A stretch of DNA of 64,000 nucleotides from Acidobacteriota bacterium. GTDB lineage: Bacteria > Acidobacteriota > Vicinamibacteria > Vicinamibacterales > UBA2999. How positions within the stretch are numbered: the first letter of the stretch is position 1; the number at the start of each line of letters is the position of its first letter. A model generated the notes under the pieces. That model had not been told where the DNA came from. It worked only from the letters and a program-made list of their open reading frames with translations, and did not search any database. This document shows positions 11,980 through 22,756 of the stretch, in pieces. The translations under genes and the position numbers were made by a program. The stretch is taken from positions 124,001 through 188,000 of the forward strand of contig JAUYQQ010000010.1 of NCBI GenBank assembly GCA_030697165.1. Direction: 5' to 3'.

Positions 11980-12154
11980 GGGCAGCGAAGACTGCAAAAT
12001 ACAGTCCCTTGATAATCGCCGGAAATGGGCGGATTCCGCGTGGAATTCTTCGCCGAGCGGGGGAATATCCCCGGCCCGTTCGAGGATCTTCTCGCCCGGC
12101 GCGCCGGTGGCACTGGCATGGTCTGTGCTCCCTGATCCGGGCAGGGAGTTCGAC

Positions 12155-12721
12155 ATGGCCACCATGACGCAATCCGCAAGCGGAACCACGACGCAGTTCG
12201 TCAGGCGCTTCATGGGCGCGTTGGCGCTGGATCCGGCGACATTTGAAGACGTCGAGGCAGACCGCACGGCGGGCGGCCAGGCCGCACTTGTGGTGTTGCT
12301 GACGTGCCTGGCGGGCGGCCTCGCGGTCGCCGGCAGCTCGCAGTTGAACGTCACCATGTTCATCGCCGGCCTGACCGCGACGCTCGGCGCGTGGGTGGTG
12401 TGGGCGCTCCTGATTACGACCATCGGCACGCTGGTCGTGCCGGAACCCACCACCAGCAGCCGGCCGGCGGAGTTGTTGCGCACCATGGGGTTTGCCGCCG
12501 CGCCAGGTGTCTTCCTGGCCTTTGGCGCCATGCGGGCGGTCGCGCCCTTTGTCGTGGCGCTGGCCACGCTCTGGATGGTGGCCGCGACCGTGCTCGCCGT
12601 GAGGCAGGCGCTTGATTATCGCAGCATGGGCAGGGCGGTGGCCGTGTGCGTGGCGGCCGGCCTGGTGGCATTTGGAATGGTCGCCGTCGCTGGCCTGCTG
12701 TTCGCGCGTCCGGTCAGCTAG
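12155..12721 (+). CDS. Yip1-like multi-helix membrane protein
   Basis: 188 residues from ATG 12155 with AGGGAG at 12143-12148. An N-terminal amphipathic stretch (QFVRRFMGALALDPATFEDV) is followed by about five hydrophobic helices; the FEDVEADR...A...V arrangement followed by paired helices recalls YIP1-family bacterial proteins. No catalytic motif. It is divergent from the multicopper oxidase operon. The function is unknown, and the family assignment rests on layout rather than a diagnostic motif. Confidence 0.65.
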   Translation: MATMTQSASGTTTQFVRRFMGALALDPATFEDVEADRTAGGQAALVVLLTCLAGGLAVAGSSQLNVTMFIAGLTATLGAWVVWALLITTIGTLVVPEPTTSSRPAELLRTMGFAAAPGVFLAFGAMRAVAPFVVALATLWMVAATVLAVRQALDYRSMGRAVAVCVAAGLVAFGMVAVAGLLFARPVS

Positions 12722-12723
12722 GC

Positions 12724-12752
12724 CACAGATTAAATACCGATTAGCACAGATT
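12724..12752. repeat. Two CACAGATT direct repeats in an intergenic gap
   Basis: CACAGATT occurs at 12724-12731 and again at 12745-12752, with an imperfect CGATTA between them, immediately after the Yip1-like gene. The stretch is AT-rich against its surroundings. Arrays of this CACAGATT style occur between genes in many bacteria; here it is only a remnant and no role can be assigned. Confidence 0.35.
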
Positions 12753-12787
12753 TCTTGTGCGGTTGGTCGTCAGAAAAGGGCCGCCAC

Positions 12788-13129
12788 ATGCCATCGTCAC
12801 AAGTCGTCTTCTGGCACCGCGACCTCCCGCCGCTTGACGCGGCGGTGATGGCCGAGCACACGGTGGCGGCGAACAGCGATCGCGTGCCTGGAACGCTGGC
12901 CCATCGCGACGACCTGTGGGATGTCTGCTACCGGCAACTGATGGCCAATGCCACCGACCGGGTGACGGCGGAGGTGACGCGGCTCGGCGGCTGCTACGCG
13001 CACGTGCATGGCGAATCAATCGTCACCAAGCACGACGACGCAGCGGGCGAAGCCTGGTTGCACGGCACGTTCACATACGTTTTGTATGGCAGCGATCAAG
13101 TGCCGGCCCTGGTGACCGGCCGAAAGTAG
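12788..13129 (+). CDS. Small conserved-looking protein of unknown function
   Basis: 113 residues from ATG 12788; an upstream in-frame Met at 12755 would add 11 residues but lies in the repeat-containing gap. The sequence contains RDDLWDVCYRQLMANATDRV and a C-terminal TYVLYGSDQVPALVTGRK; it has no signal peptide or membrane helix. I do not recognise a family. It lies 13 bases before a zinc alcohol dehydrogenase that has its own strong GGAGG, so the two may be cotranscribed. Confidence 0.55.
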   Translation: MPSSQVVFWHRDLPPLDAAVMAEHTVAANSDRVPGTLAHRDDLWDVCYRQLMANATDRVTAEVTRLGGCYAHVHGESIVTKHDDAAGEAWLHGTFTYVLYGSDQVPALVTGRK

Positions 13130-13142
13130 TTGGAGGCAAGTC

Positions 13143-14237
13143 TTGCAAAAAGTCACAGTCGTCATCGATCCAATCACGTCCGGCAAGAACGGCAGCACCA
13201 TGAACGCCCTGGTCTACGGCGGACCAGGCCAGCGGGCGTGGCAGCCGGCGCCCCGGCCGGTCATTCACGAACCGGGCGATGCGATCGTTCGCATCACCAC
13301 CTCAACCATCTGCGGCACCGACCTCCACATCTTGAAGGGCGATGTGCCGAGCGTGACGCCCGGGCGCATTCTCGGGCATGAAGGCGTCGGCATCGTCGAC
13401 GAGGTCGGCGCCCAGGTGTCGGCGTTCAAGAAGGGCGATCGCGTCCTCGTCTCGTGCGTCAGCGCGTGCGGCATCTGCGAGTCGTGCCGCAAGGGCATGT
13501 ACTCGCACTGCACGACCGGCGGGTGGGTGCTCGGCAATACCATCGACGGCACGCAGGCAGAGTACGTCCGCACGCCGCACGCCAACACCAGCCTCTATCA
13601 CCTGCCGGCGGAGATCCCGGACGAAGCCGCGGTCATGCTGAGCGACATCCTGCCGACCGGCCTCGAGTGCGGCGTGTTGAACGGCCAGGTCAAACCGGGC
13701 GACACCGTCGCCATCGTCGGCGCGGGTCCGATTGGCCTGGCGGCGTTGTTGACGGCGCAGTTCTTCTCGCCGACAACGATCATGATGGTCGATGTGGACG
13801 ACAACCGGCTGCAGGTGGCCAAGCAGTTCGGTGCCACCACGCTGATCAACAGCAGCGACGGGACGGCCGTCGCGCGCATCATGGCGCTGACCGAGGGCGC
13901 CGGCGTGGACGTCGCGATCGAGGCGGTGGGCATTCCGGCCACGTTCGACATCTGCCAGTCGATTCTGGCGGCCGGCGGACGCCTGGCCAACGTCGGCGTG
14001 CATGGCAAGCCGGTCGAGTTACATCTCGAGAAACTCTGGGATCGCAATATCGCGATTACCACGCGCCTGGTCGACACGGCGGCCATCCCGATGCTGCTAA
14101 AACTGGTGAAATCGGGCAAATTGCAGCCGGCCCAGCTGGTGACGCACCGGTTCGCGCTGGCCGACATCATGAAGGCTTACGACACGTTCGGAAACGCGGC
14201 GGCCGAGCGGGCGCTGAAGGTGATTCTCACCGCCTAG
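13143..14237 (+). CDS. Zinc-dependent alcohol dehydrogenase (MDR superfamily)
   Basis: Medium-chain dehydrogenase. The catalytic zinc site is shown by ICGTDLHIL and GHEGVGIV. The structural zinc lobe has four cysteines in CVSACGICESC and SHC, and the Rossmann motif is GAGPIGLAALL. The enzyme oxidises or reduces small alcohols/aldehydes with NAD(P); the substrate is not readable. Start choice: GGAGG at 13132-13136 sits six bases before TTG 13143 (364 residues), whereas ATG 13200 (MNALVYGGPG, 345 residues) matches the usual N-terminus of the family but lacks a good ribosome-binding site. I keep TTG but consider the ATG almost as likely. Confidence 0.88.
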   Translation: MQKVTVVIDPITSGKNGSTMNALVYGGPGQRAWQPAPRPVIHEPGDAIVRITTSTICGTDLHILKGDVPSVTPGRILGHEGVGIVDEVGAQVSAFKKGDRVLVSCVSACGICESCRKGMYSHCTTGGWVLGNTIDGTQAEYVRTPHANTSLYHLPAEIPDEAAVMLSDILPTGLECGVLNGQVKPGDTVAIVGAGPIGLAALLTAQFFSPTTIMMVDVDDNRLQVAKQFGATTLINSSDGTAVARIMALTEGAGVDVAIEAVGIPATFDICQSILAAGGRLANVGVHGKPVELHLEKLWDRNIAITTRLVDTAAIPMLLKLVKSGKLQPAQLVTHRFALADIMKAYDTFGNAAAERALKVILTA

Positions 14238-14259
14238 AGGATTGGGGTAGCATCGAGCA

Positions 14260-14745
14260 ATGCGAATCAAATACACGGCGGCAGCCATGGTGGGACTGGT
14301 GGTGGCAGGCTTCAGCCTCGTCGCGCTAGCTCAGCAGAAGCCGTCCGCGACAGCGAAGACCGCCACGCCGACCTCGGTCGTGGTGTACAAGTCCCCGACT
14401 TGAGGGTGCTGCACCGCCTGGATGAAACATCTCCAGGCGCAAGGCTTCCAGGTGGAAGCCAAGGACGTCAGTGACCCCCAGGTGCAAGCGGTCGGCAAGC
14501 AGGCCGGCATGACCGACGAGTTGTCCTCGTGCCACGTGGCGACGATTGGTGGCTACGCCATCATCGGCCACGTCCCAGCCGAAGACATCAAGCGGTTGCT
14601 GAAAGAGAAGCCGGCCATTGCCGGCATCTCGGTGCCGGGCATGCCGATGGGATCGCCCGGTATGGAGCAGGGCGGCATGAAGGAGTCGTACAACGTGATG
14701 GCGTTCACGAAGGACGGCAAGAAGTACGTCTTCGCGAAACACTAG
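14260..14745 (+). CDS. DUF411 metal-binding protein with in-frame UGA: candidate selenoprotein
   Basis: Frame 1 reads MRIKYTAAAMVGLVVAGFSL (signal peptide, then LAQQK) and continues to VVVYKSPT. It meets TGA at 14401-14403 and goes on without a break as GCCTAWMKHLQAQGF and so on to TAG 14743-14745. DUF411 proteins have YKSPTCGCC here, so the UGA replaces exactly the first cysteine of the metal/redox CGCC motif. The rest of the family is intact: SSCH, GHVPAEDIKRLL and VPGMPMGSPGMEQG. A stem-loop fitting a bacterial SECIS starts 11 bases after the UGA. Read through, the product has 161 residues with selenocysteine at position 48. Alternatives are a nonsense mutation (TGC to TGA) or a sequencing error. 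ATG 14260 follows TAGCAT at 14248-14253, so the transcript may be nearly leaderless. DUF411 proteins are usually linked to copper handling. Confidence 0.8.
14415..14439 (+). promoter_or_regulatory. SECIS-like stem-loop after the DUF411 UGA
   Basis: CGCCTGGA (14415-14422) pairs perfectly with TCCAGGCG (14432-14439) around the nine-base loop TGAAACATC. The loop begins 20 bases after the UGA and has G at its second position. Bacterial SECIS elements are stem-loops inside the coding region with the apical loop about 16-37 bases after the UGA and a G in the first two loop positions; this fits. An alternative fold adds A-T/T-A pairs and leaves loop GAAAC. SelB binding is inferred. Confidence 0.65.
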
Positions 14746-14770
14746 CAGCGGCTGGAGCGAGCCCGCCACC

Positions 14771-15391
14771 GTGGCGGGCTTCGCGACGGCATCTCCGAAT
14801 CTCACGCTGATTGACTACGCCGCCGCCCGGCTGGGCGGCGCCCGTACGGCGCGCCTGCTCGACATTGGCTGCGGCGCGGGCCGTAACGCGGTGCCCTTGG
14901 CGCGCCTTGGGTGGCGCGTCGCCGGCACCGATTCTTCACAGCCGATGTTGCGCGCAGCAGCGGCACGCGAGGGCGGTCACCATCTTCACCTCGCCAACGC
15001 CGAGATGGCGGCGTTGCCCATCCAGGGCGCGTCGGTCGACTTCATCGTCGCGCACGGCATCTGGAATCTCGCGCGCTCGGGCGCCGAGTTCCGCGGCGCG
15101 GTGCGCGAAGCCGCTCGCGTCGCGCGGCCGGGCGCCGCGTTGTTCCTTTTCACCTTCTCGCGCCACACCCTGGCCGCCGACGCGGAGCCAGTGGCCGGCG
15201 AGACGTTCGTGTTCACCCAGTTCTCCGGCGCGCCCCAGTGCTTCCTGACCGAGGCGCAACTGGCGGATGAACTGGGCGCCGCCGGCTTCGAACCGGATCC
15301 GGCGCGGCCCGTTCGTGAACTCAATCGACCGGCGCCGGGCCTGCGAACGGGCGGCCCGGTCATCTACGAAGGCGCCTTCCGCCTTGCATAA
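14771..15391 (+). CDS. Class I SAM-dependent methyltransferase
   Basis: 206 residues from GTG 14771. The SAM-binding motif I is LLDIGCGAGRNAVPLARLGW, motif II GTDSSQPML, and the later VDFIVAHGIWNLA and ARPGAALFLFTF segments complete the Rossmann methyltransferase core. The acceptor is unknown; the C-terminal half (FTQFSGAPQCFLTEAQLADE) recalls small methyltransferases acting on thiols, metalloids or other small molecules. GGAG at 14754 is rather far upstream (13 bases), and a GC-rich hairpin (14759-14781) covers the proposed start, so the start is uncertain. It lies 25 bases after DUF411 and 9 bases before the cupin gene; the three are likely cotranscribed. Confidence 0.8.
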   Translation: MAGFATASPNLTLIDYAAARLGGARTARLLDIGCGAGRNAVPLARLGWRVAGTDSSQPMLRAAAAREGGHHLHLANAEMAALPIQGASVDFIVAHGIWNLARSGAEFRGAVREAARVARPGAALFLFTFSRHTLAADAEPVAGETFVFTQFSGAPQCFLTEAQLADELGAAGFEPDPARPVRELNRPAPGLRTGGPVIYEGAFRLA

Positions 15392-15400
15392 GGAACTCAA

Positions 15401-15751
15401 ATGACGACGACACCAGGCACTATTCCGGCTTCCGAAGCGCTGCCGCTCGAGAGCCTCATCGCGTTCACCGACGGCGGCATAGCCAGCCGCGTGCTGGCAA
15501 AAAACGGCGGCGGCAACCTGACGCTGTTTGCGTTTGATCGAGGACAGGGGCTGACCGAGCACACGACGCCGTACGATGCGCTCGTGATGGTGCTCGACGG
15601 CGAGCTGGCGCTCACCATTGGCGGCACGGCCGTCACCGCGACGCCCGGCACCATCGTCCGCATGCCCGCCAACGTGCCGCACGCGGTTGAGGCGGCCGTC
15701 GCCTCGCGCATGTTGCTGATCATGCTGCGGGAGCCGAAACCCACGACCTAG
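15401..15751 (+). CDS. Small cupin-domain protein
   Basis: 116 residues from ATG 15401 with AGGAA upstream. A single cupin barrel: the first motif region is GLTEHTTPYDALVMVLDGEL, the second GTIVRMPANVPHAVEA. The metal-ligand set is reduced (H in TEHTT, H in PHAV, no complete HXH pair with the usual E), which is common in small cupins of unknown activity. Cytoplasmic. It follows the methyltransferase closely, suggesting a shared transcript; the substrate is unknown. Confidence 0.82.
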   Translation: MTTTPGTIPASEALPLESLIAFTDGGIASRVLAKNGGGNLTLFAFDRGQGLTEHTTPYDALVMVLDGELALTIGGTAVTATPGTIVRMPANVPHAVEAAVASRMLLIMLREPKPTT

Positions 15752-15794
15752 TCGGGCCTGTGGGTCGGCCTGGCATTTGCAGGCGGTGGTAGCG

Positions 15795-15941
15795 ATGGAT
15801 AACTGGATCGGCATGGCGGCGTTTCTCGTGATCTGGGTGGCCCTTCAAGTGTGGGTGTTGCCGAAATTTGGCGTGCCCACTTGAGCTGTGCCAGCACCGC
15901 GCCGGCCGGCGCGGGACGATGAGCGATCCGATCAGGAGTAA
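15795..15941 (+). CDS. One-helix membrane peptide with in-frame UGA, candidate small selenoprotein
   Basis: ATG 15795 opens a 29-residue frame, MDNWIGMAAFLVIWVALQVW then VLPKFGVPT, one clear membrane helix, ended by TGA 15882-15884. Reading through the UGA gives 18 more residues (AVPAPRRPARDDERSDQE) to TAA 15939-15941. Two observations favour readthrough. A perfect GC-rich stem-loop sits 12 bases after the UGA. A diverged partial copy at 20743 keeps the UGA and the following AVPAPRR, with only synonymous third-base changes after the UGA (GCT/GCG, CGG/CGC). I know no named family. The simple alternative is a 29-residue protein that stops at the UGA, or no gene at all. The ribosome-binding site is weak. 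Confidence 0.5.
15897..15914 (+). promoter_or_regulatory. SECIS-like stem-loop after the UGA of the small membrane peptide
   Basis: CCGCGCC (15897-15903) pairs with GGCGCGG (15908-15914) around loop GGCC. The loop starts 20 bases after the UGA, the same offset as in the DUF411 gene, and begins with GG. Such GC palindromes arise by chance in GC-rich DNA and could also act as a terminator-like hairpin, although no T-run follows. Confidence 0.45.
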
Positions 15942-15981
15942 CCTGCGGATCGAGCCGGACTGAGGGATACCCAGGCGCTGA

Positions 15982-16533
15982 CTACGGTGAAGCCGGGGCG
16001 CGCAGCACCGTGATCCAGGCCACCTCGAGCGCGAACGGACCGGGTGTGTTCTCGGCCAGAAGGAACCCTACCGCGGTGACGCTTTGGGGATCGACCGGGC
16101 CCATCCCGCGCTGGACCTGGCCGAACGAGGTGGCCTCGAACGAGTCGAGCGGCGCGCGCACCTCGATCCATTCTGCCGCGCGGGTCTTCAGGGGCGCCCG
16201 GTATGAGAAGGCCTTCATCCGCCCGGACGTGTAGAGGTTGAAACGATACTCCCGTCCGTCGCCACGGACGCGGGCCACCAGCGTGTCGCCGGCCTGCAGT
16301 CCCAGCGCTGCCGGCTGGGAACGCACCGAGGCGAAGCCACCGTTATTCTCCAGTGACAGGGTGCCGTAGAACTCCAGCGTCTGGCGGTCGGTGATCCGGA
16401 ATCGACCGTCTGACACGCCGCCCATCACACCGTCGTTGACGGTCTGCCATGCGGCGGCCGCGCCGGGCGCCGAAAACTCAAACAGCGCGGCAAGCGTCAG
16501 GTCCTCAGTTCTTCTCGGCGTGTCGCCTGTCAT
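15982..16533 (-). CDS. CIA30-family protein
   Basis: 183 residues from ATG 16533. The segment WQTVNDGVMGGVSDGRF is the recognisable CIA30 signature, followed by FYGTLSLENNGGFASVRSQP and RFNLYTSGRMKAFSYRAPL. CIA30 domains are galactose-binding-like beta sandwiches, named after a mitochondrial complex I assembly factor; the bacterial members are mostly of unknown function. No signal peptide is seen. It starts 25 bases after the stop of the leftward methyltransferase, so the two are likely one transcript. An upstream extension of the frame overlaps that methyltransferase and is rejected. Confidence 0.82.
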   Translation of the reverse strand: MTGDTPRRTEDLTLAALFEFSAPGAAAAWQTVNDGVMGGVSDGRFRITDRQTLEFYGTLSLENNGGFASVRSQPAALGLQAGDTLVARVRGDGREYRFNLYTSGRMKAFSYRAPLKTRAAEWIEVRAPLDSFEATSFGQVQRGMGPVDPQSVTAVGFLLAENTPGPFALEVAWITVLRAPASP

Positions 16534-16558
16534 GCGTGATCCCGGCCCCAGTCCGTTA

Positions 16559-17170
16559 CTACGCGCGAACGAACCGACTGTAATTGAAGTTCTGGATCGC
16601 ACCAGTCGGCGTGCGGTGAGCCTCGGCCACCGTGTCGACCAGGGAGAACCCCGGGCCGAGTTCGGCGCTGATCCCGGCCGCGTCATAACGACACACCGGC
16701 AGACCGCTGCAGCGCTCCGGACCATCGGGCGCGAACGTGCCGATGATCACACTTCCCCCGGATTGCACCAGGTCGTGCACGTGAGCAACGTATCGGGCGC
16801 GGTCCCCGGCTTCAGTCAGGAAGTGAAAGACGGCACGGTCGTGCCAGATCTCGACCGGCGCCGCCGTCCACGGCGACGTGACGTCGGCCTCGATCCAGTT
16901 CACGTGATCGGCCAATCGGCCGAGCCTCGCCGCCGCTCGCGCGAGCGCGGCTCCGGAGACGTCGAGCACCGTGACGCAGCGCAGGCCACGGGCAACCAGC
17001 CGATCCACGAGGCAGGAATCCCCGCCCCCAATGTCGATGACTCACGTGCCGGCGGCCAACCCCGTTCGCTCCAACAACTGCAGCGCGATGGTCGGCTCAG
17101 GTTGATACCAGCTGACCTCGTCGGATTGCTTCGTGGTGTAGACGCGATCCCAATGTGCCTTGCGTTCCAT
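16559..17170 (-). CDS. Class I methyltransferase with in-frame UGA, candidate selenoprotein or nonsense-interrupted gene
   Basis: ATG 17170 opens MERKAHWDRVYTTKQSDEVS, continuing WYQPEPTIALQLLERTGLAAGT. TGA (17042-17044 on the minus strand) follows, and then the frame resumes at once with VIDIGGGDSCLVDRL, the SAM-binding motif I, and runs to 16559. Both halves match one methyltransferase family (HWDRVYTTK, VSWYQ, VIDIGGG, WHDRAVFHFLTE, FAPDGPERCSGLPVCRYDA), so the UGA is not a gene boundary. A stem-loop with apical loop GATT starting 22 bases downstream could be a SECIS. I cannot say which residue homologues carry here; CGA (Arg) to TGA would also explain it. Read through, the protein has 203 residues with position 43 in question. 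Confidence 0.65.
17009..17028 (-). promoter_or_regulatory. Weak SECIS-like stem-loop after the methyltransferase UGA
   Basis: On the minus strand GGGGCGGG pairs with CCTGCCTC (two G-U pairs) around loop GATT, which begins with G, 22 bases after the UGA. The stem overlaps the glycine-rich motif I codons, which are G-rich anyway, so this is weaker than the other two candidates. Confidence 0.3.
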
Positions 17171-21896: not shown

Positions 21897-22000
21897 CCCG
21901 CCGCAACTCCACGACCACGATACCGGGGTCCTGGAGACGGGCGTATGACACCGGTCATATCGACGGCTAGCACCGCTTGCGACTGCACGTCCGGGGCCGG

Positions 22001-22013
22001 AAGGGGCCGGGGA
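22001..22013 (+). repeat. Left inverted repeat of the REP-associated transposase
   Basis: AAGGGGCCGGGGA at 22001-22013 is the exact reverse complement of TCCCCGGCCCCTT at 22724-22736, which lies inside the 3' end of the transposase gene. A further GGGGCCGG precedes it at 21993-22000. The short motif GTAGGGAG (22053-22060) also recurs inverted as CTCCCTAC (22738-22745). GC-rich short palindromic parts beside such a transposase are the expected substrate (REP). Confidence 0.6.
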
Positions 22014-22066
22014 GCTTTCTCTTTGGCATCTCGATTGCGTTGAAGTTCTTCGGTAGGGAGACTTCA

Positions 22067-22756
22067 ATGCCAAGACGACCCCGTCACACTCTGCAAGGTG
22101 TGGCGTTCCACGTGATGAATCGAGCCGTGCGTGGGACCAACCTCTTCGAAACCCAAGGCGACTTCGACGCGTTCTCAAGAATTCTGCGAGAGGAACTCTA
22201 TGGCTCCCAAGTAGAGATTCTTTCCTATGAGGTCATGCGAAATCATTGGCATTTCGTCATGACCTGCGATCGGATCGCAAATCTTTCCAGGCTGATGCAT
22301 GACTTCGAGGGGAGACATGCCAATAACTGGGCGGGCGCTCACAACGCCCGCGGCAAGGGTTATGTGTATCAAGGTCGCTTCAAAGCCATTCCAATCCAGA
22401 CCAGCCATTCATTGTTTCGGGTCTGCAGGTACGTTGAGCGCAACGCCTTGAGACAAAACCTGGTTAGGGCCGCGGAGGACTGGGAGTGGGGCAGCCTACA
22501 TGCGCGCTGCAATAACTACTATCCGATTCCGCTAGCCAGGTGGCCAATTCTGCCACCGGCCAACTGGGTTGAGCTGGTAAACACCCCGCAGACAGAAGAG
22601 GAACTGGCGGATCTGCGTGTCCGAATCAAGCGCGATCAGCCAGTTGGGGATCCGAAGTGGGTCGAGGCTGTCGCTCCATTTGTCGGACTGACTTTAAGGC
22701 CCGTTGGCAGACCGAAGAAACGTTCCCCGGCCCCTTCTCCCTACCCTAGCTCTTGA
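22067..22756 (+). mobile_element. REP-associated tyrosine transposase (RAYT, Y1/TnpA_REP family)
   Basis: 229 residues from ATG 22067 with TAGGGAG six bases upstream. Family marks: N-terminal PRRPRHTLQGVAFHVMNRAV, HUH metal site in MRNHWHFVMTCD, and the conserved RVCRYVERNALRQNL, whose Tyr is the likely nucleophile. The enzyme cuts single-stranded DNA at REP palindromes and is usually domesticated rather than a free insertion sequence. Codon use is less GC-biased than in its neighbours (TTT, ATT, CAA, AAT frequent), suggesting foreign origin. A 13-bp inverted repeat frames it, and its last 11 bases overlap the end of the convergent glutamate dehydrogenase gene, so the insertion may have set that gene's 3' end. 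Confidence 0.88.
22724..22736 (-). repeat. Right inverted repeat of the REP-associated transposase
   Basis: TCCCCGGCCCCTT, the exact reverse complement of 22001-22013, encoding part of the RSPAPSP tail of the transposase and lying only 10 bases from the glutamate dehydrogenase stop codon. Confidence 0.6.

Follow-up and report, generated by a model that had tools for sequence, protein, structure and literature searches.

The DUF411 gene at 14260-14745 (+) of the window, by which is meant the whole 64,000-nucleotide stretch of Acidobacteriota DNA that was analysed, very likely encodes a selenoprotein, a selenocysteine (Sec) form of the CopG/DUF411 family; the evidence for this is comparative and includes no selenium measurement. 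What has been shown computationally is the alternation of UGA and Cys codons at one position, the presence of Sec decoding machinery, a hairpin excess, purifying selection after the UGA and a CopG fold. The Sec form of CopG is likely to constitute a new selenoprotein family, apparently undescribed to date.

The reading frame extends from ATG 14260 to TAG 14745 and its sole in-frame break is the TGA at 14401-14403, preceded by YKSPT and followed by GCC. A preliminary description, made without database searches, had reported this frame and this break, together with a perfect 8-bp stem whose loop begins 20 nt after the UGA, and both observations held exactly (14415-14422 with 14432-14439 for the stem). 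The features referred to below are as follows.

14260..14745, + strand: DUF411/CopG-type gene, very probably a selenoprotein gene, 161 residues with the UGA read as Sec.
14260..14334, + strand: probable signal peptide, residues 1-25, ending ALAQ, assigned by eye without a predictor.
14401..14403, + strand: in-frame UGA, read as Sec48, first position of the CxCC motif, from homologue codons.
14401..14412, + strand: UGCC motif (U48 G49 C50 C51), corresponding by alignment to the CGCC through which CopG binds copper, with the role taken from PMC7558416.
14415..14422, + strand: 5' arm of the hairpin, 8 pairs, from sequence and fold.
14423..14431, + strand: apical loop of the hairpin, 9 nt, beginning at the 20th base after the UGA.
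14432..14439, + strand: 3' arm of the hairpin, pairing with 14415-14422.
14530..14532, + strand: Cys91 of the conserved SCH motif, invariant in a 20-sequence alignment.
14638..14667, + strand: GMPMGSPGME segment, residues 127-136, with candidate Met ligands M128 and M135, both invariant; CopG has two Met ligands (PMC7558416, PMC8456105).
10540..12567, - strand: multicopper oxidase ORF, probable functional neighbour, with Pfam Cu-oxidase_3/_2/Cu-oxidase domains from residue 252.

When the TGA is translated rather than taken as a stop, Pfam DUF411 (PF04214) is matched over residues 88-135 at 90.5 bits (gathering threshold 27, E-value 5.6e-26), and the protein is the only DUF411 match in its own genome (5.39 Mb in 23 contigs, rated 100% complete). 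In the 20-sequence alignment the Sec/Cys position, C50, C51, S90-C91-H92, M128 and M135 are all invariant. A phmmer search against solved structures returned 6WIS/6WJE, a DUF411 protein whose entry titles give the name copper resistance protein CopG, at 4.8e-29 over residues 37-160; the alignment sets the UGA against the leading Cys of the CGCC motif. The structure model (mean pLDDT 84, with low confidence in residues 1-20, the putative signal peptide region) superimposes on 6WIS in Foldseek with an E-value of 4.4e-15, a target TM of 0.91 and an rmsd of 1.5, and meets the expectation of a CopG fold with a C-terminal extension. The CxCC motif is present at the start of a helix, with Sec replacing its first Cys to give UGCC.

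The fold and the residues preceding the UGA also bear on the possibility that translation starts internally at ATG 14422, with the upstream half unrelated and no recoding involved. In favour of this, ATG 14422 does open an ORF of 107 codons. Against it, an ATG is found there in only 6 of 16 genes of the window clade, and among all Sec genes 27 have GTG and the rest mostly a non-start codon; the residues before the UGA are conserved; and an internal start would remove the strand and the UGCC motif that the fold needs. This explanation is all but excluded.

The strongest evidence for recoding comes from the homologues. Among 149 relatives searched, 85 have DUF411 (88 matches), and at the 87 matches where the codon of interest could be read it was TGA in 36, TGC in 48 and TGT in 3. 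The placement of the UGA at the first Cys of CGCC in the preliminary description is thus upheld, both by the alignment to the CGCC of 6WIS and by the Cys codons in 51 of the 87 homologues. Within the window's genus, TGA is found in seven genomes (its own, G001-G004, G006 and G008), the Cys form (TGC) in one (G007, locus L036), and no DUF411 match was found in G005. The one match left out of the codon counts, L103 (genome G145), has no motif in frame; it retains the C-terminal half of DUF411 with an in-frame TGA and no in-frame CxCC, and is possibly a decayed or frameshifted copy. Two further loci stand apart in the relatives set: L067 (G074) carries the variant motif FEGPG-UGA-PCC in place of YKSPT-UGA-GCC, and G095 has three Cys-type DUF411 copies (L059, L070 and L078) and no SelA match.

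Phylum-wide, DUF411 was found in 30 of 297 genomes, and outside the order TGA occupied the site in 5 of the 11 loci read (out of 12 matches, a second copy in G458 being left out). A pattern scan of named genomes returned at least 118 stretches; 70 of these were DUF411 by tblastn over the site, of which 22 repeated the relatives set and 48 were new UGA loci, a lower bound. The remaining 48, which failed to match DUF411 across the site at E<=1e-3, were dropped. The new loci carry ten phylum labels: Gemmatimonadota (9), Pseudomonadota (8), Chloroflexota (6), Acidobacteriota (5), Myxococcota (4), Rokuibacteriota (4), Thermodesulfobacteriota (4), Actinomycetota (1), Tectimicrobiota (1) and Methylomirabilota (1), with five unranked, including SAR324. 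These labels were taken from record titles and are loose where the titles are those of metagenome bins; two of the UGA loci, L163 (Parendozoicomonas callyspongiae 2012CJ34-2) and L217 (IMCC39146), come from records without a MAG mark. One of the dropped stretches, L211 (Anaerolineales), resembles a frameshifted DUF411: it reads VVYKSPT-UGA-GCCGDW and then meets an early stop, probably through a contig frameshift. Fourteen Achromobacter stretches (L115, L116, L149, L154-L156, L167, L172, L173, L176, L199, L201, L218 and L220) fitted the scan pattern as KEKxPS-UGA-GCC with 7 codons after it; they are not DUF411, and their TGA is likely to be an ordinary conserved stop.

The reading of the TGA as a recent nonsense mutation or a base-call error in a Cys-type gene can be set against these counts. 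It is favoured by the TGA being a single in-frame codon and the sole break, by the absence of a raw-read check, and by the decayed appearance of L103. Against it, TGA recurs at the same codon in 36 of 87 homologues and in the 48 further loci, and the frame after the UGA has a median of 113 codons in Sec and Cys classes alike and is under purifying selection. For the part after the UGA, the window clade has a ratio of mean pN to mean pS of 0.367, against 0.462 for the remaining Sec genes of the same order and 0.575 for Cys genes, the distances being uncorrected, the synonymous sites near saturation and the Cys value resting on 27 of 51 genes. A pseudogene or sequencing error is therefore all but excluded. 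No raw reads were seen, yet 15 other genomes carry TGA in the closest homologues (L018-L032). The earlier preference for selenocysteine over decay is accordingly supported, by the recurrence of UGA in homologues (36 of 87 and at least 48 further loci when UGA was allowed in the search) and by the presence of the machinery described below; of the observations that it had named as refuting, disabling mutations in relatives were not found, the frames being intact and under purifying selection (L103 again excepted), and Sec machinery is not absent, with SelA, SelB, SelD and tRNA-Sec all present in the same genome.

The exchange between Sec and Cys appears to have occurred repeatedly. With the Sec column masked, the tree built from 144 proteins requires no fewer than 17 changes between Sec and Cys; the count is approximate, with 60 of 140 inner branches open, and no direction was inferred (L125 and L150, whose genes run off the end of the stretch, were left out). 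Supported mixed groups include one joining Sec L089 with Cys L053 (99) and one of five rows in which Cys L036 falls together with the window gene (98). In the family of the L163 genome (G172, Parendozoicomonas), DUF411 was matched in 19 of 37 genomes, and a TGA covering the site was found only in the L163 genome itself, the 18 others, of which one is a fragment, having no TGA there; a UGA in one of 37 genomes hints at transfer or recent exchange there.

The genome that carries the window gene is equipped to insert Sec. SelA (532.7 bits) and SelB are present, the SelB match (309.3 bits) spanning positions 2-341 and being accompanied by a C-terminal piece in that region. Also present is SelD (354.7 bits), whose gene itself contains one TGA, within SCAGUASK (L226, G000:C8:380000-381300, frame from 30 +). 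The UxxK motif of selenophosphate synthetase is listed in PMC13188914 and the SelD TGA fits it, so that a known kind of Sec gene resides in the same genome. The tRNA-Sec was matched by RF01852 at 61.9 bits, and ARAGORN classified it as tRNA-SeC (anticodon TCA); RF01852 alone is unspecific, one tRNA-Ser having also passed the cut-off.

Across the 84 relatives with a readable site, SelA exceeded the cut-off in 34 of 36 Sec-type genomes and 31 of 48 Cys-type genomes, with fragments in two more of the latter (Fisher p 0.0013, uncorrected for relatedness). In the 49 further UGA genomes (those of the 48 new loci and L211), it was over the cut-off in 43, fragmentary in 4 and undetected in 2. SelA was thus not found in two UGA genomes of the same order and two of the further set; SelB and SelD were over the cut-off in all seven genomes searched for them (these four, the window's own and those of L163 and L217), making assembly gaps the likely reason for the missing SelA.

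The tRNA complement also addresses whether the UGA could be read as another amino acid, for example as Cys, by a tRNA-Cys whose anticodon is UCA, or as Trp, under an altered genetic code. Some bacteria do have a tRNA-Sec-like tRNA-Cys with a UCA anticodon (PMC7609411). Against this, 46 tRNA matches were found in the window's genome, and ARAGORN assigned a type to all of them except one weak match (L301). None of these 45 has a UCA anticodon, the tRNA-Cys having GCA and the tRNA-Trp CCA, and the only UCA found is that of tRNA-Sec; no tRNA-Ile GAT was found, so the census may lack a few. Furthermore, UGA is the terminal stop in 37 of 84 Sec genes, and hence still means stop there, and the alternatives at the site among the 87 homologues are Cys codons only, never Trp. 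Decoding as anything other than Sec is very unlikely.

A hairpin in the position of a bacterial SECIS element lies immediately downstream of the UGA. The 46-nt stretch folds at -18.7 kcal/mol (z -2.16), and 4 of 200 dinucleotide shuffles were as good. The RNA signal was separated from protein constraint by 200 synonymous shuffles per gene, drawn from the gene's own codons. By this measure the best hairpin energy averaged -8.44 against a shuffle mean of -4.40 in Sec genes (n=84), and -3.79 against -3.68 in Cys genes (n=51). With one gene per 80% cluster, p was 4.4e-6 for 32 Sec genes, 0.84 for 26 Cys genes and 1.0e-4 between the classes. Taken singly, 33% of the 84 Sec genes and 2% of the Cys genes reached p<=0.05; among Sec genes the proportion was 69% in the window clade (16), 15% in the others of the same order (20) and 29% in the scan loci (48). 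The window gene itself gave 0.03, and the isolates L163 and L217 gave 0.235 and 0.65 respectively. A near-complete helix in one of three registers, chosen after the Sec genes had been viewed, was present in 42 of 84 Sec genes and 0 of 51 Cys genes.

Covariation was assessed in three alignments that together hold 72 of the 84 Sec genes: A1 (16), chosen by relatedness, and A2 (17) and A3 (39), chosen by fit to a helix register, so that the percent paired in the latter two leans upward. The 12 Sec genes outside them, L163 and L217 included, have mostly weak hairpins, and many are from Chloroflexota or Desulfuromonadales. The number of cells altered on both sides of a pair was above that of every one of 500 shuffles in A2 (6) and in A3 (20); in A1, which represents the window clade, covariation was weak (2 cells, 194 of 500 shuffles). 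A G in the first two loop bases did not distinguish Sec genes (62 of 83) from Cys genes (33 of 47), and an Rfam scan of window positions 12000-17000 gave no match at E<=1. It has been shown computationally, without a dedicated SECIS predictor, that Sec genes as a group, and not Cys genes, carry a hairpin stronger than the protein sequence calls for.

The surroundings of the gene suggest a connection with copper. CopG genes often adjoin cueO, copA or cusCBA, and CopG, in which CxCC and two methionines hold a tetranuclear copper cluster, has been proposed to interconvert copper states and to hand copper to proteins such as CueO (PMC7558416, PMC8456105); one study found the Cys and Met motifs of CutG to be dispensable for maturation of the multicopper oxidase CutO (PMC8456105). 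In the window, the multicopper oxidase ORF ends 1.7 kb upstream of the DUF411 gene on the opposite strand. As about 250 residues precede the first Pfam domain of this ORF, translation probably begins further in, and the first ~230-250 codons of the ORF as listed are likely to be non-coding. Multicopper oxidases 85-90% identical over the available part lie ~1.1 kb from the UGA in L018 and L019, one that is 84% identical lies ~0.3 kb from the Cys-type gene of L036, and another is near DUF411 in L198 (SAR324); at L112 a P-type ATPase bearing three heavy-metal domains lies nearby. At the other loci scanned, no copper gene was seen among the neighbours tested (30 proteins, from ten loci and the window).

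The DUF411 gene is followed by a methyltransferase ORF (14771-15391, +) and a cupin ORF (15401-15751, +), homologues of which also follow DUF411 in L018 and L020, and methyltransferases are near DUF411 in L112 and L158. The window also holds an ORF at 21977-22756 (+) that resembles an IS200/REP-associated transposase.

These data can be weighed against the possibility that Sec is inserted into a glutaredoxin-like thiol/selenol redox protein that does not bind copper through selenium. This is favoured by weak matches to glutaredoxins and Uxx-star selenoproteins, and by the copper genes adjoining only some loci. Opposed to it are the match to CopG along the full length, which takes in the SCH and GMPxGSPGME segments, and the multicopper oxidase adjoining DUF411 in genomes of the same genus, and on balance it is unlikely.

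In the preferred reading, that of a Sec-containing CopG, Sec insertion, export, copper binding through selenium and an enzymatic role are all inferred. SelB would carry Sec-tRNA-Sec to the UGA at 14401-14403, aided by the SECIS-like hairpin just downstream (14415-14439), to yield a full-length exported CopG/DUF411 protein in which Sec is the first residue of the CxCC copper site (UGCC). By homology, the product may act in the periplasm beside the multicopper oxidase, either as a copper(I)/copper(II) oxidoreductase or as a protein that passes copper on. A selenolate would replace one of the thiolates adjoining the tetranuclear copper cluster, and would be predicted to render the copper site more reducing and faster to exchange; the suggestion in the preliminary description that a selenolate alters the chemistry of the copper site remains an inference, there being no experimental Sec-copper data. 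A bolder reading, towards which we lean slightly and which is unproven, is that Sec is a direct ligand of a natural, selenolate-bridged tetranuclear copper cluster, reached repeatedly by Cys/Sec exchange in several phyla and tying selenium supply to bacterial copper defence.

A widespread family, which standard gene callers are expected to truncate or miss, would thereby be added to the selenoprotein catalogue, and, if the reading is true, selenium would take part in how Acidobacteriota, Gemmatimonadota, Rokubacteria and others handle copper. With Sec in a copper-cluster site, the effect of selenium versus sulphur becomes testable using natural Sec/Cys pairs; such pairs exist in the window's own genus, between the seven Sec genomes and the single Cys genome, the latter still having its gene beside a related multicopper oxidase.

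The claim that no DUF411 selenoprotein had been described held within the open-access literature searched, where none was found; a subscription paper is not excluded. Table 1 of PMC13188914 (2026), which covers 119 prokaryotic selenoprotein families and subfamilies, has no DUF411, PF04214 or UGCC entry, DUF411 is not among the nine new families of deep-Sep (PMC12013277), and NCBIfam has no fitting model, its eight matches being weak and none of them close to the cut-off.

Among known selenoproteins, the CopZ-family (2Fe-2S) copper chaperone and SO_0444 Cu/Zn efflux proteins (PMC13188914) are likewise predicted selenoproteins with a link to copper by name, but differ in their domains (cd10141, NF033936) and motifs (GxUC, CU, UxC), and by the domain identifiers of the table are not CxCC DUF411 proteins. 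The glutaredoxin-like Uxx-star selenoproteins, as inferred from a weak alignment, may also carry Sec where the first helix of a thioredoxin-like fold begins, but they lack the DUF411 part, and the window protein does not meet their cut-offs (NF041212, 21 of 66 bits; NF041211, 15.4 of 100). The SelD of the same genome similarly has a UGA at a Cys-or-Sec position of its family and depends on the same decoding machinery, and belongs to an unrelated protein family. The closest counterpart is CopG of Pseudomonas aeruginosa (6WIS, 6WJE; PF04214), which shares the fold, 41% identity, the position of CxCC and the SCH and GMPxGSPGME segments, and which, like CutG of Rhodobacter capsulatus, is often encoded beside multicopper oxidases; where 6WIS has the first Cys of CxCC, the window gene has a UGA, read here as Sec, accompanied by a SECIS-like hairpin.
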